From Formosa haliotis (lineage in GTDB: Bacteria; Bacteroidota; Bacteroidia; Flavobacteriales; Flavobacteriaceae): a stretch of DNA of 64,000 nt. A program made the position numbers and the translations under genes. The notes under the pieces are model-generated. The model saw only the letters and a program-made list of their open reading frames with translations. It did not search any database and was not told where the DNA came from. Location of the stretch: positions 3,631,501-3,695,500 of the forward strand of contig NZ_BDEL01000001.1 of the NCBI RefSeq assembly GCF_001685485.1, written 5' to 3'. Of the stretch, positions 7,255-24,002 are shown in pieces; within the stretch, counting starts at the first letter, position 1; the number at the start of each line of letters is the position of its first letter.

Positions 7255-8280
7255 CTAGTTTTTTAATGAAGATTGACGAATAATAAGTTCTGGTGGCAGG
7301 ATTAGATTTTTTTCAATCTTTATTGTTTTAGGGTCGTCCAGTTGCTCTAAAAACACTTGAGCGGCATACTTGCCAATTTCTAACGGACATTGATCTACAG
7401 AAGAAATAGGTGTTTCTAAAAACTTAGTAAAAGGTTCGTTGCTAAAGCCTACAACGGCCATGTCGTTAGGGACATTTATGCCTCTTAATTTTAATTCTTG
7501 AATACCTCCCAGAAGCATAAAATCGCTCGATGAAAATATGGCATCGGGTTGCTGTTTTAATTTTAAAAGGGTTTCTATTGCCAATTTTCCACCTTCTAAA
7601 TCATTTTTTACAGGAATTACAAGGTCTTCATTAAATGGAATATCATAATCTTTTAAAGCTTGTTTGTATCCTTCTAATCGTCCTTGGTATATATTAACAG
7701 ATTGATAGCCTAAAGCGGTTAAGTGGGCAACGTGCTTACATCCTTGTTTTATTAAATGTTCAGTCGCTATATAGCCACCTTTAAAATCGTCTATAGTTAC
7801 AGAACTAACACCTTTTATTTCAATTTTTCTATCAAAAAATATAAGGGGAGTATGTTTTTGTAAAACGCGGTCAAATATAGATGTGTCTTCGGTATTTTTT
7901 GTCACCGAAAGTAAAATGCCGTCAACTTGAGCATTTAAAAGGGCATTAATATTTTCAATTTGTTTTTCTTCTTTTTCATGTGTTTGGCAGATCATAACAT
8001 GGTAGCCTTTTTGTTGTAATTCTTCTTCTATTCCACGTATTATAGAACCAAAAAAATTACTGTCTATACGCGGAACTATAACACCTATATTTTTGCTTTT
8101 ACCACTTTTTAGAGCTAGGGCTAACCTGTTTTGTTCGTAGCCTAATTCTTCAGCTGTTTTTAAAACGAGTTTTTTTGTTTTCTCACTGGTTTTAGAATGG
8201 TCGTTTAGGGCTCTAGAAACGGTTGCTGCAGAGATGTTTAACCTTTTGGCAATATCGTAAATAGTCGCTTTTTCTTTCAT
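7255..8280 (-). CDS. LacI-family transcriptional regulator
   Basis: 341 residues. The N-terminal helix-turn-helix (about 6-26; IYDIAKRLNISAATVSRALN) is followed by the hinge helix (RLALALKSGKSKNIGV, about 52-67) and a periplasmic-binding-protein-like effector domain to the end. It is at the edge of the alginate locus and divergent from the 8569 gene. A perfect palindrome TTGGTTAACCAA lies at 8334-8345, 54 bases before its start codon. The same palindrome precedes PL17, SusC and the GntR regulator, so this protein either belongs to the same regulon or binds that site itself. The effector is unknown, probably a sugar or uronate. Confidence 0.88.
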   Translation of the reverse strand: MKEKATIYDIAKRLNISAATVSRALNDHSKTSEKTKKLVLKTAEELGYEQNRLALALKSGKSKNIGVIVPRIDSNFFGSIIRGIEEELQQKGYHVMICQTHEKEEKQIENINALLNAQVDGILLSVTKNTEDTSIFDRVLQKHTPLIFFDRKIEIKGVSSVTIDDFKGGYIATEHLIKQGCKHVAHLTALGYQSVNIYQGRLEGYKQALKDYDIPFNEDLVIPVKNDLEGGKLAIETLLKLKQQPDAIFSSSDFMLLGGIQELKLRGINVPNDMAVVGFSNEPFTKFLETPISSVDQCPLEIGKYAAQVFLEQLDDPKTIKIEKNLILPPELIIRQSSLKN

Positions 8281-8568
8281 AATTTTTTAAGTATTAACGT
8301 ACAGGAATATTAAAATATTATACTAAGAGCTGTTTGGTTAACCAATTTAGGCAAATTATTTTCTAATAGCTTGGGATTACTAGTTTTAATGAAAAATTTA
8401 TCGTTTTAGCAATGTCTACAAGTAATTTATAATATTGGGATAGTCTTTATTATAAAATTTTTTATCATTTTAAGTTACGGTGGGTTAGGGTGTTACGATA
8501 TAATTATTTTCGAAATATGTTTTGAAAGTAGCATTGTTGTATTTTTACTTCAATAAACCCGCGAATAC
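8281..8568. promoter_or_regulatory. Divergent control region with a TTGGTTAACCAA operator
   Basis: 288 bases between the LacI gene (-) and the 8569 gene (+). The palindrome at 8334-8345 is perfect over 12 bp. Read on the minus strand, it covers the place of a -33 element for a weak TA-rich box about 20 bases further toward the LacI gene. No terminator or extra ORF is visible in the rest. Confidence 0.6.
8334..8345. promoter_or_regulatory. Palindromic operator, LacI-gene copy
   Basis: TTGGTTAACCAA, perfect 12-bp palindrome. It is one of seven related sites in this window (others at 10511, 10524, 14133, 14146, 14159, 21110), all intergenic and all next to alginate-locus genes. Confidence 0.7.
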
Positions 8569-8928
8569 ATGAAGGTAGATGATTTAGTAGGACAGTATAC
8601 TGTAATTGGAAGCAATCAAAACGATAGCGATGTGATGTATAAAGGTATACTTGACTTGACGTTAGATCTTAATAACAGAATACAAGCAAAATGGTTAATT
8701 AACAATGAACAGGAGCAGTTTGGAGCAGGCTTTTTTAAAAATAATATTTTAGTGATAAATTTTTATTACTTAGGAGAATCGGGAGATAGATTTGACGGCG
8801 TTGTGGTATATAAAGTGATAAATCAAGATATTTTGGATGGTTTCTGGTCAGAAGAATTTGGCGATCCTTTATTTCTTGGGGAAGAGCGTTGCTTTAGAAT
8901 TAAGGATGATGATGAGTTTGTAGATTAA
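8569..8928 (+). CDS. Hypothetical small cytoplasmic protein
   Basis: 119 residues, acidic, no signal peptide or membrane segment. The pattern of alternating strands (LTLDLNNRIQAKWLI, LVINFYYLG, GVVVYKVINQDILDGFW) suggests a small beta-sheet or barrel protein. I recognise no family. It is divergent from the LacI gene and shares its control region. Confidence 0.55.
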   Translation: MKVDDLVGQYTVIGSNQNDSDVMYKGILDLTLDLNNRIQAKWLINNEQEQFGAGFFKNNILVINFYYLGESGDRFDGVVVYKVINQDILDGFWSEEFGDPLFLGEERCFRIKDDDEFVD

Positions 8929-9223
8929 TTTATTGTTTTTTAATTAGGTAATGTTGGGTTTGTTTTGTTCTGGTTAAAATTTTAGTTAACTTAGTTATTG
9001 TTTTATTCTGATACATTAAAACACTAAGACTCTTGTCCCTAAGAGCACATATAATAGCAAATATTTTTAATACAATTACTGAGAGGTAGTCTGGCTGTTT
9101 CGATCCATATTTTATAGGTCTTCAGGTTAATTTGCTATATGAATTATCATCTTTCAATAAGTGTAATTCCCAATAACATAGCAGTTGTATTTTACTGATT
9201 CATTAACACATAAAATAATAATT

Positions 9224-9658
9224 ATGAAAGCAATTCTATGTACTATCATTTTAGCGGTATTAGCGCTAGGTTGTCAAGAAAAGAAAGAAAAACAACTAGT
9301 TGAAAACAATTCCGTAACTTCTGAAAAATCTGTAAAAGATAAAAGTATTTTTAAAGCAACTTTAGGAGATAAAACTTACGAAGTCGAGATTCAATGTTCC
9401 TATTTTAATGAGGATTATTTTCAGTTTAAATCTGATAAATTTGATGTCGGAGATTCTAACGGTGACGGTATAAATATCTCTGGATTTCAGGATGGAAAAA
9501 AGCTTATATTATCTATTGAAGACCAAGGGGTGCATTACAGCTCTCCTGGGGTTTTGACTTGGAAAAAAATGAATGATTCGTTTACAGGAGAAGGCGAACT
9601 TTATGAAGAAGGTTCTGTAAAAAAGATTAAAGTAAAGTTTTCTGGCGAATGTAAATAA
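9224..9658 (+). CDS. Small lipoprotein of unknown function
   Basis: The start chosen is the ATG at 9224 (MKAILCTIILAVLALGC); the upstream TTG at 9185 would bury the signal peptide. The lipobox LALGC gives a mature protein starting at C17, then a lysine/glutamate-rich linker and a beta-rich domain of about 100 residues, 144 residues in all. No family recognised. It precedes another lipoprotein by 35 bases, so the pair is probably an operon. It lies between the LacI regulator and the PL17 lyase, but no alginate operator is seen upstream. Confidence 0.65.
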   Translation: MKAILCTIILAVLALGCQEKKEKQLVENNSVTSEKSVKDKSIFKATLGDKTYEVEIQCSYFNEDYFQFKSDKFDVGDSNGDGINISGFQDGKKLILSIEDQGVHYSSPGVLTWKKMNDSFTGEGELYEEGSVKKIKVKFSGECK

Positions 9659-9693
9659 TTATCTTAGTGTTTTCAACCTAAAATAATTCAACA

Positions 9694-10311
9694 ATGAAAT
9701 TAGCAAATGTCATTATAGTTTTGATATTATGCCTTTGTTTTGGCTGTAAAGATAAACCTGAGAACAAAGAGGTTATAGACTTTATTAAAGATATTGATAT
9801 TACACATGGTATTGCAGATGACGAGTTAGATACATCTAGAAAGCAACCAATATTTAATGTAGATGTTTCTTTAAATGGGAAAAAAGTAGATTTTACGCAG
9901 CTTAGCACTAAAGAAAATGTGGTGTTTATGGATGCCGGACTAAATATTAAGTTAGTGAATAAAAATAAAAATGTATGCATGCTTAATTTTATAAGCGATG
10001 ATTTGTATACCACTATACCAAATTCGTTTACATTTCAATCTGTAAACTTACCAATGAATCAGCAATTAATTTCCGAAAGAAAACGTTCCCATATTCAGGT
10101 TTATATTCCGGAAACAAATACAAATAAGGATGTGAAAATTCTGTATACAGGGGAAGCTATTATTCAAAAATTAACAGAAGACGAAATAGAAATCACTTTT
10201 CAAGGTAAAGCTAGAACCCCAGGTGAAACTGAACCAGAAAAGTTATACGATTTTGAGGGACATATAAACATCCAAGATTACAACATATACGATATACGTC
10301 ATAATAAGTGA
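9694..10311 (+). CDS. Lipoprotein of unknown function
   Basis: 205 residues. Signal peptide with lipobox CLCFGC (lipidated C near 18), then a predicted beta-rich domain. The segment YIPETNTNKDVKILYTGEAIIQKLTE reads like antiparallel strands. No known family. Probably co-transcribed with the 9224 lipoprotein. Whether it serves alginate use is only suggested by position. Confidence 0.65.
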   Translation: MKLANVIIVLILCLCFGCKDKPENKEVIDFIKDIDITHGIADDELDTSRKQPIFNVDVSLNGKKVDFTQLSTKENVVFMDAGLNIKLVNKNKNVCMLNFISDDLYTTIPNSFTFQSVNLPMNQQLISERKRSHIQVYIPETNTNKDVKILYTGEAIIQKLTEDEIEITFQGKARTPGETEPEKLYDFEGHINIQDYNIYDIRHNK

Positions 10312-10673
10312 AACCGGAGATAAATTTGGTTTGCCCATAATAAGGTGTTCTAGATAAAAAGGTTGTCTATAAAGGCAGTATAGACTCGGTAATTTTGTGA
10401 TTTCCATTTTATATAGAAATAGTATTTAGGAGGTGTTTTTAATTCGCTTTGTTGTGAAATTCGTTAATATTTTCCTTATAATTTTTCTAATCCTAAAATT
10501 TTATCTATTTTTGGTAAACCAATTTGGTAAACCAATTTAATGGTGTTTTTGAATGCTTTTTAAGTTAAAAAAATAAGGTTAAACCAAAATTTATACATTA
10601 ATATAGTAGAAAACGCTTAAATAAGAATAATCGTAATTATTAGATTTCATAAAAAGAAAGCGAAATAAAAAAT
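10312..10673. promoter_or_regulatory. PL17 promoter region with two tandem operators
   Basis: 362 bases. A perfect TAnnTTTG box lies at 10506-10513 and runs directly into two tandem palindromes at 10511-10522 and 10524-10535. Transcription should start near 10520, leaving a leader of about 150 bases. No clear TTG at -33 and no hairpin terminator for the preceding lipoprotein gene are seen. Confidence 0.65.
10511..10535. promoter_or_regulatory. Two tandem 12-bp operators before the PL17 lyase
   Basis: TTGGTAAACCAA occurs at 10511-10522 and again at 10524-10535, a 13-bp period. The first copy overlaps the -7 box TATTTTTG (10506-10513), so a bound protein would block the polymerase. Confidence 0.7.
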
Positions 10674-12665
10674 ATGTTATATTTAAAAAGATTCATTTTA
10701 ATCTGTTGTGTCATGTTGGTTCAGAACGGATTTTCTCAAGACCACCCCAATTTAATTCTTACCAAGCAAGGGGTAAAGGATATCAAATCACAATTAGGAA
10801 AAGTGCCTTTGTTTGATGCCACTTTAGCTCAAGTTAAGGCCGATGTAGATGCTCAAATTCTTGAAGGAATAGATGTTCCTATTCCTAAAGATATGGCTGG
10901 GGGGTATACCCATACTAGACATAAATTAAATTATCTTACCATGCAAGAGGCTGGTGTTTTGTACCAAATTTTAGGTGACGAAAAATATGCTATTTATGTA
11001 CGTGATATGTTAAATGAATACGCTAAGATATATAAAGGTTTGCCAAGACATCCACAAGAGCGTTCTTATGCTAGAGGAAAATTATTTTGGCAAGCATTAA
11101 ACGATTCTAACTGGTTGGTGTATACAAGCCAGGCTTACGATTGTATTTACACCTTCTTGTCTAAAAAGGAAGTTAAATATTTAGAAAAAGAATTGTTTAA
11201 ACCTATGGCAGATTTTCTGTCTATAGATACACCTCAGTTTTTTAACAGAATTCATAACCATAGTACTTGGGGTAATGTTGCCGTAGGTATGATAGGGTTA
11301 GTTATGGATGATGATGTTTTAATTGATAGAGCATTATACGGAATTAAAGGTTTAAAATTAGATGCCGGTAAAGATAACGATGGTGGCGATATTTTTGTAG
11401 AAGGACAAAAAGCTGGTTTTTTAGCTAATTTAGAAGAGCCTTTTTCTCCAGACGGTTATTATACCGAAGGTCCTTATTACCAACGTTACGCCATGTATCC
11501 GTTTATGATTTTTGCAGAAGCATTGCAAAATGTAAGACCAGAAACAAAACCATTTGAATATAAAAATGGCGTGTTATTAAAAGGTGTAGATGCTTTATTG
11601 AATTTAACAGATAAGAATGGCGATTTTTTTGCCTTAAATGATTCGCAAAAAGGGATGTCTTATTACTCGGGTTCTTTAGTGTCTGCAGTAGATATTGCTT
11701 ATTTTTATGGTAAAAAAGATCCAGCATTATTATCGATAGCAAAAGAGCAAGGGCGTGTACAATTAGATCAAACAGGTTTGGCTGTAGCGATGGATATTCG
11801 AGATGGAAAAGCAAAACCATTCGATAAAAAATCTATTTTACTTACAGATGGAGCTAAAGGCGATGAAGGTGCGGTTGGAATATTGCGTTCAACAAAACAG
11901 GATGCACTTACTTTAGTTATGAAAAATGCTGCTCAAGGATTAAGCCATGGGCATTACGATAAATTATCCTATTCTTTATTTCATGAAGGAAACGAAGTTT
12001 TACAAGATTATGGTTTAGCTCGTTTTGTAAATATTGAACAAAAAAATGGAGGAGGATATTTAAAGGAAAATAAAACTTGGGCAAAGCAAACTATCGCACA
12101 TAATACAATTATTCAGGATGAAACCTCGCACTTTAACGGCGACTATGATACAGGAAGTAAGCATCATTCAGATATGTATGTTTTTAATGTTGAAAATCCA
12201 GACATCCAAATTGTAAGTGCAAAAGAAAAAAATGCATATCCAGGTACACTTTTACAGCGCACCATGGTGATGTTGAATCATTCAGATTTTGAGCAACCTG
12301 TTGTTCTGGATCTTATGCAGGTGAATTCAGATAAAAAACATCAATTCGATTTACCGTTTTACTATTTAGGCCAAGTGATTTCTACTAACTTTGATTATAA
12401 GAAAGAAGAAACCTTGCATACTTTAGGTAAATCTCACGGGTATCAGCATTTATGGAAAGAAGGCGAGGGTACTTCAACATCTGGAGATGCGGCCTTAACC
12501 TTTAGGAATAATAATACCTTTTATACGATAACTACGACGGTTTCAGATAAAGATCATTTAATTTTTGGTCGTATAGGTGCCAACGATCCGGAATATAATT
12601 TAAGACCAGACCCGGTATTAATTGTTAGAAAAATACAGACGCAGCTTTATTTGCCTCGGTCATAG
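10674..12665 (+). CDS. PL17 alginate lyase (oligoalginate lyase), C-terminus cut by a frameshift
   Basis: The readable frame gives 663 residues: a signal peptide (to about GFSQ, 22), an alpha/alpha-barrel alginate-lyase domain, then a heparinase II/III-like beta-sandwich. Active-site features of PL17 are the N195-H196 pair in IHNHSTWGN, the tyrosine-rich GYYTEGPYYQRY (261-272), and SHGHYDKLSYS. PL17 enzymes remove unsaturated monouronates exolytically from alginate oligomers, usually in the periplasm. The frame breaks in the A5 run at 12629-12633. Adding one A would continue to a stop at 12905-12907, giving about 744 residues, the normal family length. The last six readable residues (QLYLPRS region) are out-of-frame sequence. 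Either a real inactivating mutation or a sequencing error. Confidence 0.9.
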   Translation: MLYLKRFILICCVMLVQNGFSQDHPNLILTKQGVKDIKSQLGKVPLFDATLAQVKADVDAQILEGIDVPIPKDMAGGYTHTRHKLNYLTMQEAGVLYQILGDEKYAIYVRDMLNEYAKIYKGLPRHPQERSYARGKLFWQALNDSNWLVYTSQAYDCIYTFLSKKEVKYLEKELFKPMADFLSIDTPQFFNRIHNHSTWGNVAVGMIGLVMDDDVLIDRALYGIKGLKLDAGKDNDGGDIFVEGQKAGFLANLEEPFSPDGYYTEGPYYQRYAMYPFMIFAEALQNVRPETKPFEYKNGVLLKGVDALLNLTDKNGDFFALNDSQKGMSYYSGSLVSAVDIAYFYGKKDPALLSIAKEQGRVQLDQTGLAVAMDIRDGKAKPFDKKSILLTDGAKGDEGAVGILRSTKQDALTLVMKNAAQGLSHGHYDKLSYSLFHEGNEVLQDYGLARFVNIEQKNGGGYLKENKTWAKQTIAHNTIIQDETSHFNGDYDTGSKHHSDMYVFNVENPDIQIVSAKEKNAYPGTLLQRTMVMLNHSDFEQPVVLDLMQVNSDKKHQFDLPFYYLGQVISTNFDYKKEETLHTLGKSHGYQHLWKEGEGTSTSGDAALTFRNNNTFYTITTTVSDKDHLIFGRIGANDPEYNLRPDPVLIVRKIQTQLYLPRS

Positions 12666-12907
12666 AAACACATGGAAGCTACAGTACTGTTAGTGAATTA
12701 GCGCATAACGCTTTTTCAAGTATCAAAAACGTAAGTGTTTTAGAAAGTTCTGAAGCATATTCTGGAGTCACTATAACAATGAAGAACGGGGACACGTTTG
12801 TTTTTATAATGTCGAACTCAAATTCGGCTAAAACAGAAAAACATAATATAAATATTAATGGCAAAACCTATAATTGGAACGGTGTTTGTTATTTCAAGAA
12901 ACAATAA
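12634..12907 (+). pseudogene. Out-of-frame C-terminal end of the PL17 lyase
   Basis: In the -1 frame relative to the main PL17 ORF, the sequence reads without stops as ...DAALFASVIETHGSY... up to TAA at 12905-12907. This is the expected end of the heparinase II/III-like domain, including the conserved LFASVIEPHG-type strand. About 90 residues are therefore detached from the enzyme by the missing base in the A run at 12629-12633. Confidence 0.85.
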
Positions 12908-13031
12908 CTATTAGAATAAGAGCAACATTTAAACACCTATAAAATTGATTAAGATTGAGTTTATAATTTTAATTTCTCTAATTTTATAGTTTAAATACGA
13001 CTTATACATTATCAAATAAAAATTAAACAAA

Positions 13032-13406
13032 ATGGAAAGATTTAGTCAAAAGTACGTTATCACAAAAGACATGGAATGGGAAGAACTTGGTGGAGGAGTG
13101 TCAAGAAAATTCTTAGGTTACGATAACCAAATTATGATGGTACAAGTAAAATTTGAAAAAGGGGCATTAGGTTCTCCTCACCAACATTTTCATACCCAAG
13201 CAACTTATGTTGTTTCAGGTAAATTCGAATTTGAAATTGATGGCGTAAAGCAAATCGTTGAAGGAGGAGATGGTGTTTATATCGAGCCAAATTTATTACA
13301 TAGTGCAGTTTGTTTAGAAGAAGGAATGTTAATTGATACCTTTAGCCCAGTAAGAGAAGATTTCTTGTCTGGTGGTGGAGTATCTTATTTCGGAGACAAA
13401 GAGTAG
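13032..13406 (+). CDS. kdgF: KdgF-type cupin, unsaturated uronate linearising enzyme
   Basis: 124 residues, one small cupin domain. Metal ligands are visible as H50 and H52 (with H54) in PHQHFHTQ, Q56, and H90 in PNLLHSA, the KdgF arrangement. KdgF speeds opening of the unsaturated monouronates released by PL17 and PL7 into linear 4-deoxy-L-erythro-5-hexoseulose uronate (DEH). It follows PL17 by 124 bases, consistent with one transcript, and is ended by the terminator at 13511-13537. Cytoplasmic, no signal peptide. Supports the alginate assignment of the locus. Confidence 0.9.
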   Translation: MERFSQKYVITKDMEWEELGGGVSRKFLGYDNQIMMVQVKFEKGALGSPHQHFHTQATYVVSGKFEFEIDGVKQIVEGGDGVYIEPNLLHSAVCLEEGMLIDTFSPVREDFLSGGGVSYFGDKE

Positions 13407-13510
13407 AACCTTATTATATTAACTAGAAAGAATTTATTTCTTCTGGTTACTTAAACGCATAACGTTACCAAAGCCAAAGATATCTTTGTTTGTTGGTAAT
13501 ATAACACATA

Positions 13511-13537
13511 AAAACCGTCTTTTTAGGCGGTTTTTTT
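13511..13537 (+). terminator. Rho-independent terminator after kdgF
   Basis: Stem AAAACCGTCT (13511-13520) with AGGCGGTTTT (13525-13534, one G-T pair), TTTT loop, T run to 13537. Confidence 0.8.
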
Positions 13538-14127
13538 AGTTTATAATAGATACGGTGTATGGTAAAGTTTAGTTTTTTACATTGCTGAACAGGGGGGTAG
13601 GCTTGTCTGTTTTTGGTCTCTTTATTTAACTGAAATCTATTTTAATTTTTCGCGTAAAATTGTGGTGTTTTTTTGTGTAACCACGTGAATAAATCACCTT
13701 GTTTTTCTCTCAATTTTCCATAAATAAATAAAATTTTTGAGTTTAGTATTAAAAAATAATATACTATGCTGAAGATTTAATTTTATGGCATATTATTTTT
13801 TCAATAATTATGTTAAAGTTTTTAGTTTATTTTAAAAATGATATGGAAATTGTTTTATATTTTTTTTAATAAAAAGACGCCAAAAGATGTTAAATAATTA
13901 AGATAATTTAGAGTTAAAATATGGGTTTATTTTAGAGGAATTCTATGTTTTTTAATGAAAATATGGTGTTTTAATTGCGGAGAGGCTAATATGGTAAACC
14001 GCTTATAACTCAGTAATTTATTGCTTAAAGATTGTGAAATTAATTGTTAATTGAGCAGATTTTTCATAATTAACATTAAAACGCATATTTTTTTATCCAA
14101 TTATTTTTTTTTAACAGGAAATTGGCA

Positions 14128-14170
14128 TATATTTGGTCAACCAAACTGGATAACCAATCTGGTTTACCAA
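14128..14170 (+). promoter_or_regulatory. SusC promoter -7 box with three tandem operators
   Basis: TATATTTG at 14128-14135 matches TAnnTTTG. It overlaps the first of three 12-bp near-palindromes with an exact 13-bp period: TTGGTCAACCAA (14133-14144), CTGGATAACCAA (14146-14157) and CTGGTTTACCAA (14159-14170). A half-site follows at 14183. No good TTG at -33. The arrangement fits a repressor covering the start of the main alginate operon. Confidence 0.75.
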
Positions 14171-14457
14171 AGAAACAAAAAATTGGTTAGTTCATGCTTT
14201 TACTGTTAAGAAAAAGACGAATAGAAAGGGTAGTTGTGCGTCTACCTTTTTAACTACTATTTATTGAAGTTTAATTTATAAAAATACTTGTATAGTAGCT
14301 TATGTTATTATAAAAGTAAGGAAAAAAAGTTATAAACAAAACAATTTAAATATTAGTTATAATAAAATATTCTGTTTTTCTATGATAGTAAGGTGTGGTT
14401 AGTAATAACATGCTGGCCAATAAATAGTTCTAATTATTTATTATTAAAACAAAACAA

Positions 14458-17400
14458 ATGGATTTGAAAAAACAATTAGTATTGTATGTAGTTCTGTTGC
14501 TAAACACAGCTTTGTTTGCGCAGGATCTCGTTTCAGGGGTCGTTTCTGACGAGAATGAAGTTCCTATACCGGGGGTAAATGTCTTGATTGTAGGGACAAC
14601 TAAGGGAGCTTCTACTGATTTTGACGGAAAGTATGAGCTTTTAGTTGAAAAAGGAGATATATTACAATTCTCTTATTTAGGTTATGTTACTCAGGTTATC
14701 ACTGCCACAGGTAATCAGGTAATTAATGTAGTGTTAAAAGAAGACTTAAGTGAATTAGATGAAGTAGTTGTAATTGGATACGGTACTCAGAAAAAATCAC
14801 ACGTAACTGGAGCGGTTTCAAAAGTTGTTAACGACGATCTAGATCAAATTGCAGTATCAAGGGTTGATGATGCCTTAGTAGGTCAGGTTTCTGGGGTTAA
14901 CATTCAGCAAACAGATGGTGAGGCGGGTGCAGCACCAAGTATTACAATTAGAGGGGTTGGATCTATGGCAGGTGATTCTACTCCATTAATCGTTGTAGAT
15001 GGTGTTATAGTAGATTCTAGTTTCTTAGGATCTTTAAATATGAACGATGTAGAATCTTTTGAGATATTAAAGGATGCGGCATCTTCTTCTATTTTCGGTT
15101 CTAAAGGATCTAATGGTATTATCCAAATTCAAATGAAAGCGGGTGTAGCAGGTAAAACAAGAATTAACTATTCTACGTTTACTGGTATGAAAACTGCTAG
15201 AAAAAGTGATGCTTACGGATATACTACAAGAGCATGGGCAGATCAACAAATGAGAGATGTAGGTGAGTTATCTATTTATACTCAAGCACAACTACAAATT
15301 GGTACAGACCGTTCTTGGCAAGATGTATTCTTTGAATCAGGTATCATTAATAACCACTCTTTATCTTTAAGAGGTGGTAACGACAATACTAAGTATGTTG
15401 TGAGTTTAAACTATGCTAATGACGAAGGTGTAATGTTAAAAGATAATTACACAAAGTATGGTGCCAGAGTTAAAGTGGATAGTAAAATTAACGATAAATT
15501 TAAAATTGGTGCTAGTTTAAGCCCTTCTTATACAGATAGAACACGTTTTTCTGAAAACATTCATAACGTAGCAAGACACCAACCTTGGTTGCCTATCTAT
15601 CATACAGAAGAAACACTTAAATTTATTGATCCAAATGGAGCATATAAAGACATTGAAGTAGGGGATTACGCTAGACAAGATCACTTTACTATGTTCGATT
15701 TTAATGGTGATGGTGTATACGATGAGCAATTATTAAATATTGGTAACAGTAATAACTCTAACCCTTACGCTAGAATTGTAGAACGTGATAGAGAAGATAA
15801 AACATTCCAATTATATGGTAGTTTTTACGGACAATACGATATTATAGATGGATTAAGCTTTAAGAGTTCATTATCTGGTTCTTATACACAAAGAAGAAGA
15901 ACAGATTACATGGGAACACTTGCGAGAGAAGTGCCTACAGATGCTTATATGGAAGAGATTTCTCAAGGAGACAACTATATGCTTTTTGATAACTTCTTCA
16001 ACTATAACAAATCTTTTGGAAAACATGACTTAGGTGTAACTGCGGGTGCATCTGTTGAGAGTAGAAATTATTTCTTCTCTGGATTCACAGGAACAGGATA
16101 TACTAACGATGAGGTAAAAGAAATTACAAACGCAACTGCAATTTCTCAATTTGATGGATTTACATGGCAAAAAAGAGGTATCTCTTACGTAGCTAGAGCA
16201 ACTTATGCATTCGATAATAAATATTTAGCGTCTTTCAGTTTCAGACGTGATGGTAGTTCAATCTTCGGTTTAGATTATAAATACGGTAATTTCCCTGCAG
16301 GTTCTGTTGGTTGGAATATTGCTAAAGAAGATTTCTTAGTAGAAAGTAATGTGGTAAGTAACCTTAAGTTAAGAGTTAGTTATGGTGTTACTGGTAACGA
16401 CCGTTTAAATACAGGTGCGGTAGATTTAGATGCTAATGGTGGTGGATCTACATTAAGTACTGGTAATATCTTAGTAGATTACTATCCTCACTTAGCCTTA
16501 TTAAGTGCTTCTGGTAACAGTTACCCAGTAGATGGTAATATTACAGCAGGTTTCTCTCCGGTAAATATTGCTAACCCAGATTTAAGATGGGAGCGTTTAA
16601 TAGAGATTAACCCTGGTATTGACTATGGTTTCTTAAACAATAGAATTACAGGTTCTGTAGACTGGTACCAAAGAACAAGTGACCAGTTATTACTTAACAA
16701 CCCAATTTCTGTAACTACAGGTTTCGACGGAGCATTAGTAAACTTAGGAGAAGTAACTAACGAAGGTTGGGAAATTGAATTAAGAACTAAGAATATTACT
16801 TCTGAGAAATTTAGATGGAGTACAACAGTTATCGCAACTACAAACCAAAATACATTAGTAGATTTCGCAGATTCTAACGGTCAAATTACAAGTTTAGATC
16901 CTGCTAGACCAGCAGAATGGATTAACTTAGAAGGACAACCAATATCTCAGTTCTACGGATATGTAGTAGATAAAGAAATTCCTTTTGAATATAGAGATAG
17001 ACCTTACAGACACGTTGGTGCTGAATCTGGTTTAGTATATGTAAAAGATTTAAATGGTGATGGTGTTTTAGATGATGATGATAAAACAGTATTAGGTAAC
17101 CCTTACCCAGAATTAATTTGGAGTTTTACAAATGAGTTTTCTTTCGGAGATTTCGATTTCTCTTTCATGTTCCAAGGTTCTCATGGTGCAGAAGTAAGAA
17201 ACATTGCAGATCACTACTTATTTAGTAACAACAACAACAGAGCATTAATTCCAAACTCAGAAGGTATGGAAGCGCCTAATCAAGAATTCTTGGTAGATAA
17301 ATTCTTTACAAACAGTATTGTTCAAGATGCATCTTATATCGCATTAAGAAACGTTAATATTGGATATAACTTACCAAGCGATGTGTTAGATAAATTTAAG

Positions 17401-17577
17401 ATCTCAGGATTAAGAGTGTATGCTACAGGTCAAAACCTATTGTATTTCACTGCAGACAACTATACAGGATGGAATCCAGAGGCTGTAGATAAAACGAACC
17501 CAACACAATATGGATACCAAAGAGGAGGATCGCCAATTTATAGCACCGTATCTCTTGGATTAAATTTAGATTTTTAA
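14458..17577 (+). CDS. SusC-like TonB-dependent outer-membrane transporter (alginate oligomers)
   Basis: 1039 residues. Signal peptide (to about LFAQ, 22), a carboxypeptidase-regulatory-like domain (about 24-95), a TonB-box region LDEVVVIGYGT (100-110), plug (about 115-225) and a beta-barrel ending in an aromatic residue (LGLNLDF). Length and the following SusD gene identify the SusC class. It should import alginate oligosaccharides across the outer membrane. First gene of SusC-SusD-PKD-PL7-GntR-MFS-SDR, whose order and content are those of flavobacterial alginate loci. It has three operators upstream, so it is probably the most tightly controlled gene. Confidence 0.93.
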   Translation: MDLKKQLVLYVVLLLNTALFAQDLVSGVVSDENEVPIPGVNVLIVGTTKGASTDFDGKYELLVEKGDILQFSYLGYVTQVITATGNQVINVVLKEDLSELDEVVVIGYGTQKKSHVTGAVSKVVNDDLDQIAVSRVDDALVGQVSGVNIQQTDGEAGAAPSITIRGVGSMAGDSTPLIVVDGVIVDSSFLGSLNMNDVESFEILKDAASSSIFGSKGSNGIIQIQMKAGVAGKTRINYSTFTGMKTARKSDAYGYTTRAWADQQMRDVGELSIYTQAQLQIGTDRSWQDVFFESGIINNHSLSLRGGNDNTKYVVSLNYANDEGVMLKDNYTKYGARVKVDSKINDKFKIGASLSPSYTDRTRFSENIHNVARHQPWLPIYHTEETLKFIDPNGAYKDIEVGDYARQDHFTMFDFNGDGVYDEQLLNIGNSNNSNPYARIVERDREDKTFQLYGSFYGQYDIIDGLSFKSSLSGSYTQRRRTDYMGTLAREVPTDAYMEEISQGDNYMLFDNFFNYNKSFGKHDLGVTAGASVESRNYFFSGFTGTGYTNDEVKEITNATAISQFDGFTWQKRGISYVARATYAFDNKYLASFSFRRDGSSIFGLDYKYGNFPAGSVGWNIAKEDFLVESNVVSNLKLRVSYGVTGNDRLNTGAVDLDANGGGSTLSTGNILVDYYPHLALLSASGNSYPVDGNITAGFSPVNIANPDLRWERLIEINPGIDYGFLNNRITGSVDWYQRTSDQLLLNNPISVTTGFDGALVNLGEVTNEGWEIELRTKNITSEKFRWSTTVIATTNQNTLVDFADSNGQITSLDPARPAEWINLEGQPISQFYGYVVDKEIPFEYRDRPYRHVGAESGLVYVKDLNGDGVLDDDDKTVLGNPYPELIWSFTNEFSFGDFDFSFMFQGSHGAEVRNIADHYLFSNNNNRALIPNSEGMEAPNQEFLVDKFFTNSIVQDASYIALRNVNIGYNLPSDVLDKFKISGLRVYATGQNLLYFTADNYTGWNPEAVDKTNPTQYGYQRGGSPIYSTVSLGLNLDF

Positions 17578-17607
17578 TAATTTTTCAACGATAAATAAAA
17601 TAATATT

Positions 17608-19077
17608 ATGAAATATTTTAAATATATCGCTTTTATTTTGGTGGGAAGTCTTTTCACGGGATGTAGCGACTTTTTAAACCCAACTCCAAGTTCTGGTATT
17701 ACTACGGATTCGTATTATAAAAATGCCGACGAATTAGAAACAGGTTTAATTGGAGTATATGCTGGTATTAAAGGAATAAACAGTACTAGTAAAGAAGATA
17801 ACCATGGTGTACAATGGGAGTTTTACGTAACAGAAATGCGTACTGATAATACGTCGACTAAAACGCCAGATTCGGAAGATGCATCTGATGCTGGGCAATT
17901 AGAAAGTTTTGCAGTACTGCCAACTAACAACTTCGTATTAAATTACTTTTCAAGTTATTTCCAAATTATATACAGAGCTAACATTATTTTAGCTAATATG
18001 GATGTTGTAGATGACGAAGTAAGAGCAGCAGAACTAGAAGGTGAAGCTAGATTTATTAGAGCTTATGCTTATTTTAACTTAGTACGTTTATTTGGTGATT
18101 TACCATATATTGATCGTGTTGTTACTCCAGATGAAACTGAAGTACAATTTACAAGAGTTCCTACAAGTGTAATCTACGAAGATTTAATTATTCCAGATTT
18201 ATTAAGTGCTGTAGCAGGAATCAATCATAACTATACTACAAGAGCAAACAAAAATGCTGCAAAAGCATTATTAGCTAAGGTATACTTATCTTTAGAGTCG
18301 CCAGAGTATAATAAGGCACAAGTACTATGCGAAGAGATTATTAACAGTGGTAAATACCAATTACAATCTAATTTTAGTAATGTATTTTACTCTGAGTTAA
18401 ACTCTGAAGTTATTTGGGCTATCGGTTACAACAGCCAATTACAAGACAACAGTCAGTTATTTTCTGCAGAATTTATGAATGCTGTAGGTAACTCAAGTGG
18501 TGTAAACTACGTTACAACAGATTTAAAAGCCGCTTTAGATGAAGAAGGTGGATTAAGAACGCCTGTGGCTTATAGAGAAGATCCGCTTACAATTTTTGGA
18601 GGAACTATTAGATACCAAACAGCTAAGTACTTCCCTGATGGTGATTCAGGAGGAGCAGACGGTCAAACTTTCGAAGGTGTACCTACTTTAGCAGGTAACG
18701 ACTGGATTGTATTACGTTATGCAGATGTATTATTAATGCATACAGAAGCCATTTTAGCAGGTGCTACAGAAACGTCAAATGCTAATGCTATTAATTCCTT
18801 TATGGAAGTGAGAAGAAGAGCTTGGCCAGATTCGGCTACGCCTGGAAAAGTAACTAGAGATGAGTTGTTATTAGAGAGACGTGTAGAATTTTCTTCAGAA
18901 AACCAAAGGTTCTTCGACTTGTTACGTTTTAAAGTAGCAAATTCAGTATTATCTGCATTTGCAGCTGCGAACAACTTTAATTTTACCGCTAACGATTTAT
19001 TATTGCCTATACCGCAAAACGAAATCAACTTAAGTAAAGCTAGTGGTACAGAGATGAGACAAAATCCTGGATACTAA
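17608..19077 (+). CDS. SusD-like surface glycan-binding lipoprotein
   Basis: 489 residues. Lipoprotein signal (SLFTGC, lipidated C19), then the all-helical TPR-rich SusD fold. Recognisable blocks are the early ADELETGLIGVYAGIKG, RAYAYFNLVRLFGDLPY in the middle, and the C-terminal end LLPIPQNEINLSK...QNPGY typical of RagB/SusD proteins. It caps the SusC barrel and binds alginate oligomers. It starts 30 bases after SusC and is surely co-transcribed. Confidence 0.93.
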   Translation: MKYFKYIAFILVGSLFTGCSDFLNPTPSSGITTDSYYKNADELETGLIGVYAGIKGINSTSKEDNHGVQWEFYVTEMRTDNTSTKTPDSEDASDAGQLESFAVLPTNNFVLNYFSSYFQIIYRANIILANMDVVDDEVRAAELEGEARFIRAYAYFNLVRLFGDLPYIDRVVTPDETEVQFTRVPTSVIYEDLIIPDLLSAVAGINHNYTTRANKNAAKALLAKVYLSLESPEYNKAQVLCEEIINSGKYQLQSNFSNVFYSELNSEVIWAIGYNSQLQDNSQLFSAEFMNAVGNSSGVNYVTTDLKAALDEEGGLRTPVAYREDPLTIFGGTIRYQTAKYFPDGDSGGADGQTFEGVPTLAGNDWIVLRYADVLLMHTEAILAGATETSNANAINSFMEVRRRAWPDSATPGKVTRDELLLERRVEFSSENQRFFDLLRFKVANSVLSAFAAANNFNFTANDLLLPIPQNEINLSKASGTEMRQNPGY

Positions 19078-19104
19078 TTAATTGTAATTGATTAACTAAA
19101 ACAC

Positions 19105-20070
19105 ATGAAAACAATGATTAATTTAAAAAAATACGCTTTTGGAATCTCGGCAAGTGCTTTGCTTATTACGGCCGCGATCTCAATGACATCTTGCGACCCG
19201 AGTTTAAGCGCTTTTGAGTTTGAATTGCCAGAGGCAAATTCAAAACCAGATACTACACCTCCAACTGCAGGGTTTACAGCAACGGCAGAAGCGACAGATT
19301 ATTTAACATACACGTTCGCTAATAACTCAGATAACGCAACAGATTTTGTTTGGGATTATGGTGATGGGAATACCTCTACAGGTTACGATGGGGTTAATAC
19401 CTATCCAGGTGAAGGAAACTTTTTAGTAACCTTAACTGCAACAGATAAATTAGGAGCGGTATCTGTAGATACTTTAACTGTAAGTGTTGTAGAACCTGAA
19501 ATTCCACCAACAATTAACCCAGATGTTGTTAATGGTAACTTCGATGAAGGTACTGCAGGTTGGAAACCAAGCAATTGTACAGGTTGTAATACTAATGCTT
19601 TCAATGCAAGTTCAGATGGTTCACCAAATAATTACGATGGTACACCTTCAGGAGCTAGTAAAACACCAGGTGCTAAGTACACTAGTTCTACATCAACTAA
19701 ATCAGATGGTTCACCTAAAGATGATGGTAGTACACGATATGGTTTACAAACTCTAACAGTTACACCTAATGCGGTTTATGTTATAGAATATGAATATGCT
19801 ATTGAAAATGATGCAGCTGATATTGATGCTGAAGGTGATCGTGCCGTAGTTAGAATTACAGATGGTTGGTATTCTGATGCAGCAGAAGCAGCAGCTTCTG
19901 AGCCATTAGTACGTGTTGCTGGAGCTAAAGCAGATGGTAAAGGAGCCTTTAATATTGCTAGAGGTGTATTTACTTCAAATGCAAGTGGTCAAGTAACGAT
20001 CCTTATGTCTGCAGCTACAGCTGAAGATGAGTTATGGATAGATAACCTTAAAGTTTATCCAGTAGAATAA
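19105..20070 (+). CDS. PKD-domain surface lipoprotein, probable alginate-binding protein
   Basis: 321 residues. Lipobox ISMTSC (C30), a short linker, one PKD domain (about 50-130, with the signature FVWDYGDGNTSTG and the closing VTLTATDKLGAVSVDTLTVSVV). A C-terminal beta-sandwich module (about 140-320) resembles carbohydrate-binding modules (VNGNFDEGTAGW at its start, LWIDNLKVYPVE at its end). It occupies the position of SusE/SusF-type surface glycan-binding proteins. Serine/glycine/aspartate-rich repeats (SDGSP occurs twice) fill about 175-215. Binding of alginate is inferred from context. Confidence 0.85.
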   Translation: MKTMINLKKYAFGISASALLITAAISMTSCDPSLSAFEFELPEANSKPDTTPPTAGFTATAEATDYLTYTFANNSDNATDFVWDYGDGNTSTGYDGVNTYPGEGNFLVTLTATDKLGAVSVDTLTVSVVEPEIPPTINPDVVNGNFDEGTAGWKPSNCTGCNTNAFNASSDGSPNNYDGTPSGASKTPGAKYTSSTSTKSDGSPKDDGSTRYGLQTLTVTPNAVYVIEYEYAIENDAADIDAEGDRAVVRITDGWYSDAAEAAASEPLVRVAGAKADGKGAFNIARGVFTSNASGQVTILMSAATAEDELWIDNLKVYPVE

Positions 20071-20081
20071 AATCAAATAAA

Positions 20082-21008
20082 ATGAAAAACTTCCGAAAAG
20101 AAATATTAGGATTATTAGTAATAGTTTTTCTTTCTGTTAACGCTACTTGTCTTGCACAGACAGGTAGCGCTACAGATTCGGATTCTAAAGTCGAGAAAAA
20201 AGACAAAAAGAAGAAGAAAAAGAAGAAGAAAAAATATAAACTACCAAATGTCGATTTAAGTCATTGGAGTGTTACTACTCCAGAACTTAACGCCAAAGGT
20301 AGAGCTATGAATATTGAGCCACCAGCGATCTTGGATTATGCTACAGATGAAAGGTTAATTCCATACATGTACAACGATTCTTCTATTGGAGCTTTAGTCT
20401 TTTATTCTTTTCCGAGTAATGCCACAACGGCAAATACAAAGTATACCAGATCTGAGTTAAGAGAACAAATGGTTCCAGGCGATAATAATACGAACTGGAA
20501 ATTCGCCGATGGTGCTTATATGAAAGGTAGATTGTCTATGGGCGATGTGTCTAAAAGTTCAGATGGTAAATACCATAAAGTTATTATCATGCAAATTCAC
20601 GGTAGATTGTCTAATGAACAACGTGAATTAATTGGTCAAAAAGATAATAATGCACCACCAATCTTAAAAATTTATTGGCAAGATGGTAAAATTCGTGTAA
20701 AAACTAAAGAGCTTAAAGACTTAGCAGCAAGTAATGAAGAAATCCTTCATGAAGATGCTTGGGTAGACGATAAGGGATTTACGTTTGAACAAGAAGTAGG
20801 TTTTGGTAAATTTTATTTAGAAGTAAAAGTAACAGACGGTAAAATGGTTGTTATTTTAAATAAAAACGAATACGCAGTTTACGATAATGTCCACATGAGA
20901 AGATGGGGTGTTTTCGAAAACTATTTTAAAGCAGGTAACTATTTTCAGTCTAGAGACGAAGGGTCTTTTGCAAAAGTTAACTTCTACGATTTAGAAGTTA
21001 GTCATTAA
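20082..21008 (+). CDS. PL7 alginate lyase
   Basis: 308 residues. Signal peptide (to about TCLAQ, 26), then a strikingly basic linker (about 38-50, almost all lysine) and one PL7 jelly-roll domain. The three PL7 signatures are present: R123-S-E-L-R127, Q171-I-H173, and Y281-F-K-A-G-N-Y-F-Q289. QIH-type enzymes usually favour guluronate-containing alginate. It cuts alginate by beta-elimination, probably in the periplasm or at the surface. It starts 11 bases after the PKD gene. The lysine tract is AAG/AAA-rich and unusual for a secreted enzyme. Confidence 0.92.
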   Translation: MKNFRKEILGLLVIVFLSVNATCLAQTGSATDSDSKVEKKDKKKKKKKKKKYKLPNVDLSHWSVTTPELNAKGRAMNIEPPAILDYATDERLIPYMYNDSSIGALVFYSFPSNATTANTKYTRSELREQMVPGDNNTNWKFADGAYMKGRLSMGDVSKSSDGKYHKVIIMQIHGRLSNEQRELIGQKDNNAPPILKIYWQDGKIRVKTKELKDLAASNEEILHEDAWVDDKGFTFEQEVGFGKFYLEVKVTDGKMVVILNKNEYAVYDNVHMRRWGVFENYFKAGNYFQSRDEGSFAKVNFYDLEVSH

Positions 21009-21087
21009 CAAATAATTACAATTATTATTAGGTTTATTTAACATACAAAAAAAGGGTTTGTTAATACAGAAATAGCTCATTTTTTTG

Positions 21088-21121
21088 TACTTTTGCACAC
21101 AGAAAAAAACTGGTTAACCAA
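21088..21121 (+). promoter_or_regulatory. Internal promoter and operator before the GntR gene
   Basis: TACTTTTG (21088-21095) is a perfect TAnnTTTG box. CTGGTTAACCAA at 21110-21121 lies just downstream, about where transcription would begin, and 20 bases before the ATG. This would make the GntR gene autoregulated and give GntR-MFS-SDR a second promoter. Confidence 0.7.
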
Positions 21122-21141: not shown

Positions 21142-21849
21142 ATGAAGTTAGAGGTACTTTCAAAAAGCGATAACCAAGAAATTTTAAATCGAGTAATGTT
21201 TTTAATTGGAGAATTAATAAACGTTAAGAATTTAGAACCAGGGGATAAGCTACCTTCAGAACGAATGTTAGCCGAGAAGTTTAATGTTAGTAGAAGTCTT
21301 GTTAGAGAGGCTATTAGCAAATTAGAGTTTTTTGGTTTATTAAAATCGATTCCTCAGAGTGGTACGTTTGTAGCCGATATTGGTGTTGTTGCCATGAACG
21401 GAATGATCGATTTTATTTTAAAACTCGATGATCCAGATTTTAAAGCTTTGGTAGAAACACGTATTCTACTTGAATTAAAAATTGTTAAGTTGGCTGCTCT
21501 TCGTAGAACAGAAGAGGATTTAGTTCAAATAGAAAATGCCTTAAAAGCTTACGAAGATAAAGTTAAAAATGGTAATCAACCTGCAGTTCAGGAAGATTTA
21601 CTATTTCATTTGGCCATTGCCAATGCTAGTGGTAACAGTACTTTAAATCTTTTTATGCTAAAAATTACACCAGAAATTATTACAAATTTCAAAAAGTATC
21701 ACGTGTGCTCAAATAATTTAACTGGGCAAGCTGCAGATGAGCATAGAGAAATTTATAATGCTATAAAATTGCAAGATCCACAATTAGCAAAAACAAAAAT
21801 GAAAGAGCATTTTAAAATGTTATATCAGTATTGTTATAATATTTTATAA
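21142..21849 (+). CDS. FadR-subfamily GntR regulator of alginate use (AusR-like)
   Basis: 235 residues. The N-terminal winged helix (about 15-80; KLPSERMLAEKFNVSRSLVREA) is followed by an all-helical FCD effector domain (about 95-230) with metal-site histidines in LLFHLAIANAS and DEHREIYNAI. As I recall, a GntR repressor named AusR controls the alginate system of Zobellia galactanivorans; this gene has the same position. It has a palindromic operator upstream and is the prime candidate to bind all seven sites. FadR-group operators often read TGGT-N-ACCA, close to what is seen. The ligand is likely an alginate breakdown product such as DEH or KDG. Confidence 0.88.
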   Translation: MKLEVLSKSDNQEILNRVMFLIGELINVKNLEPGDKLPSERMLAEKFNVSRSLVREAISKLEFFGLLKSIPQSGTFVADIGVVAMNGMIDFILKLDDPDFKALVETRILLELKIVKLAALRRTEEDLVQIENALKAYEDKVKNGNQPAVQEDLLFHLAIANASGNSTLNLFMLKITPEIITNFKKYHVCSNNLTGQAADEHREIYNAIKLQDPQLAKTKMKEHFKMLYQYCYNIL

Positions 21850-21922: not shown

Positions 21923-23206
21923 ATGAAGGTAAAAGGATTAAGGTGGTTTATTATTGGGCTTATATTTTTAGCATCTGTAATTAACTACATCGACAGAAGC
22001 GCATTAGCAGTTATGTGGGGAAGTGAAAGTCTTCCAGGGTCAATTTCACACGATTTAGGCCTAACAAAAGAGCATTATAGTTATATCCTTAACATCTTTA
22101 TGGTGGCTTATGCTTTAGGACAATTATTTTCGGGTAAATTGTTCGATAAAGTTGGAACACGTATCGGATACGTAATTAGTATTGGAGTTTGGGGATTATC
22201 ATCTTTCTTACACTCTACCGTTAGAGGATTCGTAGGACTTGCTTTTTTTAGAAGTACTTTAGGTTTATCAGAAGCTGGTAACTGGCCAGGAGGAGTTAAA
22301 AGTAATGCAGAATGGTTCCCTATTAAGGAACGTGCTATCGCACAAGGACTATTTAATGCAGGAGCATCTATAGGTTCTGTAGTTGCACCACCATTTATTG
22401 CTATGCTATTTGTTGCCTTTGGATGGAAAATTACCTTCATGGTAGTAGGTTCTTTTGGTATATTGTGGATTATTCCATGGTTACTTATCAATAAAGCAGG
22501 ACCAAAGAAACACCCTTGGATTACAGAAGAAGAACAAAAATACATTTTAGATGGTCAGTCTCAAGCAGATCGTGATGCTGAAGACGATGTTAAAGGTTTA
22601 AGTTTAAAAGAAATTTTATCTCACAAAGAAGCTTGGTCTATCGTTGTAGGTCGTTTCTTCTTAGAACCAATCTGGTGGTTATTTGTGGGTTGGATGCCAA
22701 TTTACTTATTCGATGTTTACGGATTTGATGTAAAAGAAGTAGGTATGTTTGCTTGGGTACCTTACGTTGGTGCCGCTATTGGTAGTATTGCTGGAGGATA
22801 TGTTTCTGGGCAAATTATTTCTAAAACAAACTCGATAGATAAAGGTAGAAAAACGACTATCTTAATTGGTGGTATCATCATGTTCTTAGGTTTAGTGGCT
22901 ACTGTATTATATGGTAACACACCAGAACGTTTTGTAGGTATCGTATTCGTAGTATTATTCGGATTCCAGTTCGCTATTGGTAACGTACAAACTTTACCAA
23001 GTGATTTCTTCAATGGTAAAAACGTTGGTTCTTTAGCTGGATTAGGAGGAATGGTTGGTGTATTCTCTGTTATTATCATGAACTTTATTGTTCCTATTGT
23101 TGCAGAGGTATCTTACACCCCTATATTTATTGCCATTGCAGTATTTGTTCCGCTAGGAATTGGAGCAATCTACTATTTCGCAAAAGAAATTAGAAACGTA
23201 GAGTAA
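21923..23206 (+). CDS. MFS transporter, hexuronate (ExuT/GudP)-type
   Basis: 427 residues with about 12 transmembrane segments. The early motif NYIDRSALAV and LGLSEAGNWPGGVKS are typical of the anion:cation symporter group that includes ExuT. It should move unsaturated uronates or DEH from periplasm to cytoplasm for KdgF and the SDR. It lies between the GntR regulator and the SDR in the alginate operon. Confidence 0.9.
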   Translation: MKVKGLRWFIIGLIFLASVINYIDRSALAVMWGSESLPGSISHDLGLTKEHYSYILNIFMVAYALGQLFSGKLFDKVGTRIGYVISIGVWGLSSFLHSTVRGFVGLAFFRSTLGLSEAGNWPGGVKSNAEWFPIKERAIAQGLFNAGASIGSVVAPPFIAMLFVAFGWKITFMVVGSFGILWIIPWLLINKAGPKKHPWITEEEQKYILDGQSQADRDAEDDVKGLSLKEILSHKEAWSIVVGRFFLEPIWWLFVGWMPIYLFDVYGFDVKEVGMFAWVPYVGAAIGSIAGGYVSGQIISKTNSIDKGRKTTILIGGIIMFLGLVATVLYGNTPERFVGIVFVVLFGFQFAIGNVQTLPSDFFNGKNVGSLAGLGGMVGVFSVIIMNFIVPIVAEVSYTPIFIAIAVFVPLGIGAIYYFAKEIRNVE

Positions 23207-23249
23207 AATAAAAAACAGAGTAAAAATTAATAATATAAATTAAATTAAA

Positions 23250-24002
23250 ATGAGTAAAGTAGCAGTAATAACCGGTGCAACCGGTGGAATTGGTTTTGAA
23301 GTAGCAAAAAGACTAGGAAAAGATGGATATACTGTTGTATTAAACGGTATTGAAGATGAAGTAGGAGCTCAAAGAGTTGCAGAATTAACTGCAGAAGGCA
23401 TCACTGCTGAATATATTGGGTTCGACATGACTAAAGACGAAGCAGTTACTGAAAACATTACTAAAATTGGTGAAAAATACGGGAAAATTGATCTTCTTGT
23501 AAATAATACTGGTGGTATTGGAGTTAGAGCTAGATTTGAAGAAATGACAACTGAGCAATACAGATTTGTTATGGCTTTAAACCTTGATTCAGTATTTTTT
23601 GCTTCAAGAGCTGCTATTCCTTTCCTTAAGAAAGGTGAAGATGCTTCTATCATTAACTACACGTCTAACGCAGCTTGGAATGGTGCAGGACCTGGTGCTG
23701 GAATTTATTCAGTATCTAAAGGTGGAGTACAATCTATCACTAGAGCTTTAGCTAAAGATTTAGCTGAATACGGAATTAGAGTAAACGCAGTATCTCCTGG
23801 TACTATCGATACACCTTTCCATGCTCAAATTAAAGCTACTAAGCCAGAAGTTTTTGCTTCTTGGGCAAATAGTGTATTATTAGGTAGATTAGGTCAGCCA
23901 GAAGAAGTTGCAGGTGTTGTTTCTTTCTTAGCAAGTAAAGATGCTTCTTTCATTACAGCTGAAACTATCCAAATTGGTGGTGGTCAAGCTTTAGGTATCT
24001 AA
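23250..24002 (+). CDS. SDR oxidoreductase, probable DEH reductase (DEH to KDG)
   Basis: 250 residues, classical short-chain dehydrogenase. The NAD(P)-binding loop TGATGGIG is at 9-16, NNTGG replaces the usual NNAG, and the catalytic Y153 and K157 are in YSVSKGG. In alginate loci such an enzyme reduces 4-deoxy-L-erythro-5-hexoseulose uronate to 2-keto-3-deoxygluconate. It is the last gene of the operon and is followed by a very strong terminator. KDG kinase and KDPG aldolase are not in this window. Confidence 0.88.
   Translation: MSKVAVITGATGGIGFEVAKRLGKDGYTVVLNGIEDEVGAQRVAELTAEGITAEYIGFDMTKDEAVTENITKIGEKYGKIDLLVNNTGGIGVRARFEEMTTEQYRFVMALNLDSVFFASRAAIPFLKKGEDASIINYTSNAAWNGAGPGAGIYSVSKGGVQSITRALAKDLAEYGIRVNAVSPGTIDTPFHAQIKATKPEVFASWANSVLLGRLGQPEEVAGVVSFLASKDASFITAETIQIGGGQALGI

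Follow-up and report, generated by a model that had tools for sequence, protein, structure and literature searches.

The window analysed here is a stretch of 64,000 nucleotides from Formosa haliotis (assembly GCF_001685485.1, contig NZ_BDEL01000001.1, positions 3,631,501 to 3,695,500 of the forward strand). It carries a polysaccharide utilization locus (PUL) for alginate: a PL17 oligoalginate lyase gene, a run of genes for SusC, SusD, a PKD protein and a PL7 alginate lyase, and a GntR-family regulator gene followed by genes for an MFS transporter and an SDR reductase, with a LacI-type regulator gene beside the PUL (Table 1). A sequence-only reading had placed seven copies of one operator between these genes, as the mark of an alginate regulon under the GntR protein. 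We find these sites at 8334, 10511, 10524, 14133, 14146, 14159 and 21110, each between listed open reading frames (ORFs), and from the sequence comparisons below we identify the TTGGTnnACCAA units, with high confidence, as probable operators of an AusR-type GntR repressor.

Operator units and promoter boxes in the window

The seven sites are present, but they are not all copies of one consensus. Exact TTGGTWAACCAA occurs in the window only at 8334, 10511 and 10524; the sites at 14133 and 21110 have one mismatch each and that at 14146 has two, whereas the site at 14159 has two on the plus strand and one on the minus strand. The proposal that sites precede lacI, PL17, SusC and GntR genes only holds for the intergenic ones, but three further TTGGTNNACCAA matches with one mismatch (19616, 42217 and 58483) all lie within ORFs. 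The grouping into arrays of one, two and three units was borne out, with a period of exactly 13 bp at 10511/10524 and at 14133/14146/14159. So was the promoter register: the first unit overlaps a TAnnTTTG (−7) box at the PL17 and SusC genes, and the site at the GntR gene lies just past its box. At lacI, the only such box is a version with one mismatch, TAAATTGG, at 8349–8342.

The half-sites had been likened to operators of FadR-group GntR regulators. A survey of this subfamily gives half-sites TKGT/ACMA, GT and AC being 2 nt apart in regulators such as GntR and UxuR (PMC4494728), and the units agree with this consensus and with a GT–AC spacing of 2–3 nt, their centre being 2 nt long. The available part of the survey has no Bacteroidetes FadR-subfamily regulators in its table and mentions no 13-bp arrays.

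Single sites and arrays measured against chance

Could the sites be chance matches in AT-rich DNA? With two mismatches allowed, the window contains 39 matches against 22.7 expected, and one of 100 shuffles reached 39. We then scanned the genome, a single contig of 4,305,801 bases, using the reversed pattern as control. Lone YTGGTNNACCAR was found at 37 places against 36 for the control; the lone motif was accordingly rejected as a regulon marker. In contrast, 13-bp pairs with up to three mismatches gave nine matches against one, and exact pairs whose gap could vary from 1 to 30 gave four against none, all four fitting the 13-bp register. A motif common at unrelated genes, which the sequence-only reading had named as evidence against itself, is therefore what we find for lone sites and not for arrays. 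Thus, single matches are weak evidence, whereas 13-bp arrays are far above chance, and their period and promoter register are kept in 79 relative loci (see below). For the arrays chance is already refuted, and as an account of the sites as a whole it has next to no probability; the lone site at 8334 may itself be a chance match.

Arrays co-occur with the GntR protein

Which protein binds the sites? In a sample of 299 Flavobacteriaceae genomes, we detected the GntR protein in 89 (E ≤ 1e-20), PL17 in 73 (E ≤ 1e-20), LacI in 134 (E ≤ 1e-60) and arrays, defined as a 13-bp pair with up to two mismatches, in 90. Arrays were present in all 89 genomes with GntR and in 1 of the 210 without it. The corresponding figures were 73/73 and 17/226 for PL17, and 66/134 and 24/165 for LacI, so arrays track GntR better than either. 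Because of this distribution the GntR/FCD protein encoded at 21142, already proposed as the likely binder, is almost certainly the protein that recognises the sites. In a phylum-wide sample of 382 genomes (GntR cut-off E ≤ 1e-40), GntR was found in 14 genomes and arrays in 13, including all 11 GntR-positive Flavobacteriaceae.

Alternatively, the LacI protein itself could bind the sites, since an even palindrome would suit a LacI-type protein too. In this genome and three other Formosa genomes the lacI gene adjoins the PUL, and in the window a perfect palindrome precedes it. However, arrays follow LacI poorly in the counts above, and the site before lacI is absent from all three syntenic Formosa orthologues beside the alginate locus and from all 16 LacI genes inside the 79 relative loci; among other LacI loci, 1 of 29 has a site, at 183 bp (G013 is counted in both sets). 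Neither a conserved lacI site nor arrays tracking LacI, the signs of a LacI-controlled regulon, was found, and LacI as binder was rejected on co-occurrence and non-conservation as highly improbable. Membership of the lacI gene in the regulon, also claimed at first, is doubtful because the 8334 site is missing from the three syntenic orthologues.

Two observations concern these genes and sites. The 16 LacI ORFs of the relative loci (L058–L136; e.g., L062:13931-14950) are of another LacI type, 41–46% identical to the window LacI, and lie on the strand opposite to GntR, 2–4 kb behind it, and have no operator. A TAnnTTGG sits immediately on each of three lone sites (window 8334, L024:5052 and L020:5021). 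It has one base fewer than the usual −7 box and, apart from the final base, is like the TAnnTTGY motif described in Flavobacterium psychrophilum (PMC9723704).

Array architecture in relative loci

We examined 79 named relative loci around GntR (1,515,273 bases). As GntR was the criterion for picking these loci, nearness to PUL genes is in part a given; period, register and size are free of this bias. Allowing one mismatch at most, we counted 355 sites in them, whereas the reversed pattern gave 58. No site was seen in L069 or L128. Site pairs within 60 bp are spaced by 13 bp (117), 26 bp (35), 33 bp (1) and 39 bp (1), and every one of the 35 pairs at 26 bp contains a recognisable middle unit with at most two mismatches. 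For unit counting, up to two mismatches were accepted once one unit in the array had at most one; leaving out 69 single clusters inside ORFs and 13 intergenic clusters without a recognised target, 149 arrays were kept. Among those with several units, 100 of 105 lie ahead of a recognised system gene, and four of the other five are within 0.8 kb of a locus end.

The arrays share several features: (i) a TAnnTTTG box opens exactly 5 bp ahead of unit 1 in 93/149 arrays (SusC, 67/70; GntR, 9/46) and is elsewhere in 8/149, so that the overlap seen in the window is a register kept in relatives; (ii) array size follows gene class, with mostly three units at SusC (three in 43, two in 22, four in 4 and one in 1), mostly two at lyases (PL17: two in 8, one in 3; PL6: two in 5, three in 1; PL7 types: two in 6/6) and mostly one at GntR (one in 40, two in 6), SusC and GntR differing by a Mann-Whitney p of ~1e-19, uncorrected for relatedness; (iii) in SusC triples unit 1 is nearest the consensus, the mean mismatches along the triple being 0.40, 0.98 and 1.05; and (iv) in 253 array units the TGG and CCA bases are kept at 0.98–1.00, the inner T at 0.80 and the inner A at 0.95, around a 2-nt centre.

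Within 200 bp before GntR, 44/79 loci have a site at one mismatch or fewer, against 53/1580 random pieces, which makes the site at 21110 credible. GntR is thus likely to regulate its own gene through this site.

Does the operator extend to more distant relatives? Three distant loci, whose GntR is 48–50% identical and which contain SusC/D and PL6 or PL7 relatives, have exact TTGGTNNACCAA sites ahead of GntR or close to it. In two of them, TTGGTNNACCAA pairs lie 15 bp apart before GntR (L199:10636-10689 and L200:10126-10152). The core operator thus follows this GntR protein down to ~50% identity while the spacing shifts. In addition, a paralogue, a second GntR 58% identical to the first, adjoins SusD2 and SusC2, and before SusC2 we find five units at 13 bp, TTGG(A/G)nnnCCA(G/A), starting on a box, TACATTTG. 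That the array design is kept while the operator is shifted suggests that this design belongs to the repressor clade and not to one PUL.

The regulon beyond the window

Seven TTGGTnnACCAA arrays are present genome-wide, six of them ahead of genes for lyases, SusC or a secreted protein and one an orphan; two lie inside the window (PL17 and SusC) and five, including the orphan, beyond it (Table 1). With arrays at PL17, SusC, two PL6 genes, a secreted PL7 and a secreted protein, the proposed alginate regulon is supported, and it reaches beyond the window through five further arrays and the lone sites of another two PL7 genes. Other inspected lone sites are within ORFs or near genes without a known alginate link. 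In the relative G013, a PL6 gene between the same flanking neighbours occupies the place of the orphan array, which we read as an operator remaining after gene loss; the alternative is gain of PL6 in G013. The 160 nt behind the orphan array fold at z −3.06, but a small RNA there was rejected, with no Rfam match at gathering score, no terminator-like site and the PL6 gene in that place in G013.

Further observations concern single genes. A lone perfect site stands directly ahead of a 274-aa gene (L020:4186-5010, minus strand; genome ~3091509), a possible further target, whose product had no Pfam or NCBIfam match. The PL6-type gene at L018:6029-8615 (genome ~2340028-2342614) lies in three frames, against an uninterrupted relative in G210. 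The last ~100 residues of the window PL17 (12599-12901; compare G013) are in another frame than the main one, which stops at 12665; this is either a real frame change or a sequencing error.

Table 1. Operator arrays, promoter boxes and genes in and around the proposed regulon (window positions unless marked otherwise)
Feature	Position	Strand	Remarks
LacI-type regulator beside PUL	7255..8280	−	not supported as binder
Lone perfect palindrome, lacI	8334..8345	−	53 bp ahead of lacI; role doubtful
−7 box TATTTTTG	10506..10513	+	last 3 bases are first 3 of unit 1 (PL17)
Two operator units, PL17 lyase	10511..10535 (10511-10522, 10524-10535)	+	138 bp from ATG
PL17 oligoalginate lyase gene	10674..12665	+	reading frame changes near 3' end
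−7 box TATATTTG	14128..14135	+	overlaps unit 1 of SusC array
Three operator units, SusC	14133..14170 (starts 14133, 14146, 14159)	+	287 bp from ATG
SusC, SusD, PKD protein, PL7 alginate lyase genes	14458..21008	+	
−7 box TACTTTTG	21088..21095	+	14 bp ahead of GntR site
Single operator unit, GntR gene	21110..21121	+	20 bp from ATG
GntR/FCD repressor, AusR-like; proposed binder	21142..21849	+	Pfam GntR and FCD; co-occurrence
MFS transporter and SDR reductase genes, behind GntR	21923..24002	+	
Array before PF14592 (PL6) gene	genome 215028		
Five-unit shifted-operator array, SusC2	L056:13312 downwards (genome ~1556311)	−	
Orphan three-unit array beside ffh	genome 1835813-1835850 (L017:6814-6851)		perfect −7 box, no ORF behind
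Lone site at start of further PL7 gene	genome 2299051		
Three-unit array before second PL6 gene	genome 2339939		
Array before secreted PL7	genome 2732551		adjoining secreted PL7 has lone site at 2735370
Array before type IX-secreted protein	genome 3710688		weak CBM match

Comparison with known systems

The core control system is already known, an AusR-type alginate repressor model having been published in 2020. As described in citing papers, AusR of Zobellia galactanivorans belongs to the GntR family and represses the alginate system; it binds operators present singly, in pairs or in threes, and alginate intermediates release it (Dudek et al. 2020, doi 10.1093/nar/gkaa533). The system described here resembles it, by that description, in a GntR-family protein encoded in an alginate PUL and in alginate promoters that have operators singly, doubled or tripled: the window protein has GntR and FCD domains, and its gene lies among SusC/D, PL7 and PL17 genes with one, two and three operators. 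Compared with AusR as the citing papers describe it, we see here an exact 13-bp period, a constant overlap of unit 1 with the −7 box, array sizes that follow gene class across many genera, arrays of four and five units and the 15-bp variant. No named Zobellia locus is among the 79 relative loci or the 120 proteins of the matches listed. A literature search, which did not cover the 2020 AusR paper, found no paper with this operator; among the matches listed for the operator letters, none is on alginate regulation by its title, and a sugar-regulon paper has the letters in a primer.

Escherichia coli NanR is likewise a GntR/FCD repressor with a repeated operator, on which its dimers sit side by side until released by a sugar acid; it is described as reading direct GGTATA repeats separated by roughly half a turn of the helix, with a cooperativity that needs a 32-residue N-terminal extension (PMC8012715). 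Unlike these direct repeats, the units here are palindromes 13 bp apart. An AlphaFold model of the window GntR protein (25 sequences, mean predicted local distance difference test score 74.4, predicted template modelling score 0.60) gave template modelling scores around 0.4–0.5 in structure comparison; the predicted fold supports the GntR/FCD class and nothing finer.

A model for the alginate switch

How might the arrays work? In the absence of alginate, a GntR dimer would occupy unit 1, and repressor and sigma factor would compete because the first TTG of unit 1 also closes the −7 box. In F. psychrophilum the TAnnTTTG box is described as covering −12 to −5 (PMC9723704); unit 1 would therefore lie at about −7 to +5, with later units over the first transcribed bases. 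Further dimers would fill these 13-bp-spaced units downstream and strengthen the block, more units giving tighter repression: one at the repressor gene, two at the lyases and three at the SusC operon. Alginate breakdown products would then bind the FCD domain, and the DNA would be released. Taken as a whole, operators of an AusR-type GntR repressor, competition at the −7 box, graded units and release by an inducer are very probably the best explanation of the sequence data. Within it, a promoter-anchored unit 1 with graded downstream units is plausible, and cooperativity and graded repression would fit the data.

Several observations weigh against this explanation. Besides the equal counts of lone sites and control, 35/79 loci have no site with at most one mismatch within 200 bp ahead of GntR, and the exact −7 box is absent from the scanned stretch in 48/149 arrays. 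The window GntR protein, unlike NanR, is without a long N-terminal extension, its GntR domain match beginning at residue 21 (profile position 8). The 299 genomes are related, so that co-occurrence events are not independent, and one of them (G054) has an array match without detected GntR; this single match is at noise level, since G054 also has one control match. In the phylum sample, arrays without detected GntR occur in G477 and G464 (one match each), and the three genomes with distant GntR proteins (48–50% identity) have no 13-bp arrays (0/3).

Two accounts of the array may be considered. Tentatively, we propose a tunable promoter in which the TTG is shared and each unit added at 13 bp may raise the induction threshold stepwise (one for the repressor, two for lyases, three to four for the transporter, five for the paralogous PUL with its own GntR); the deeper GntR branch keeps the core operator at 15-bp spacing, and spacing and dimer contacts would have changed in concert. 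Alternatively, it is possible, if somewhat doubtful, that GntR binds but the units are filled independently, with 13 bp reflecting duplication or packing and array size no grading. The lack of a NanR-type extension and the 15-bp spacing of distant relatives would suit independent filling. Against it, the spacing in the 79 loci is essentially in multiples of 13 bp apart from the one pair at 33 bp, all 26-bp pairs have their middle unit, and gene classes differ in array size.

Among the major marine polysaccharides is alginate, whose digestion by flavobacteria is timed by this switch. The rule of TAnnTTTGGTnnACCAA followed by further units every 13 bp would allow the regulon to be called in unannotated flavobacterial genomes, and would also reach lyases far from the PUL. 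The natural series of arrays would be suited to asking whether the order of induction depends on the number of operators.

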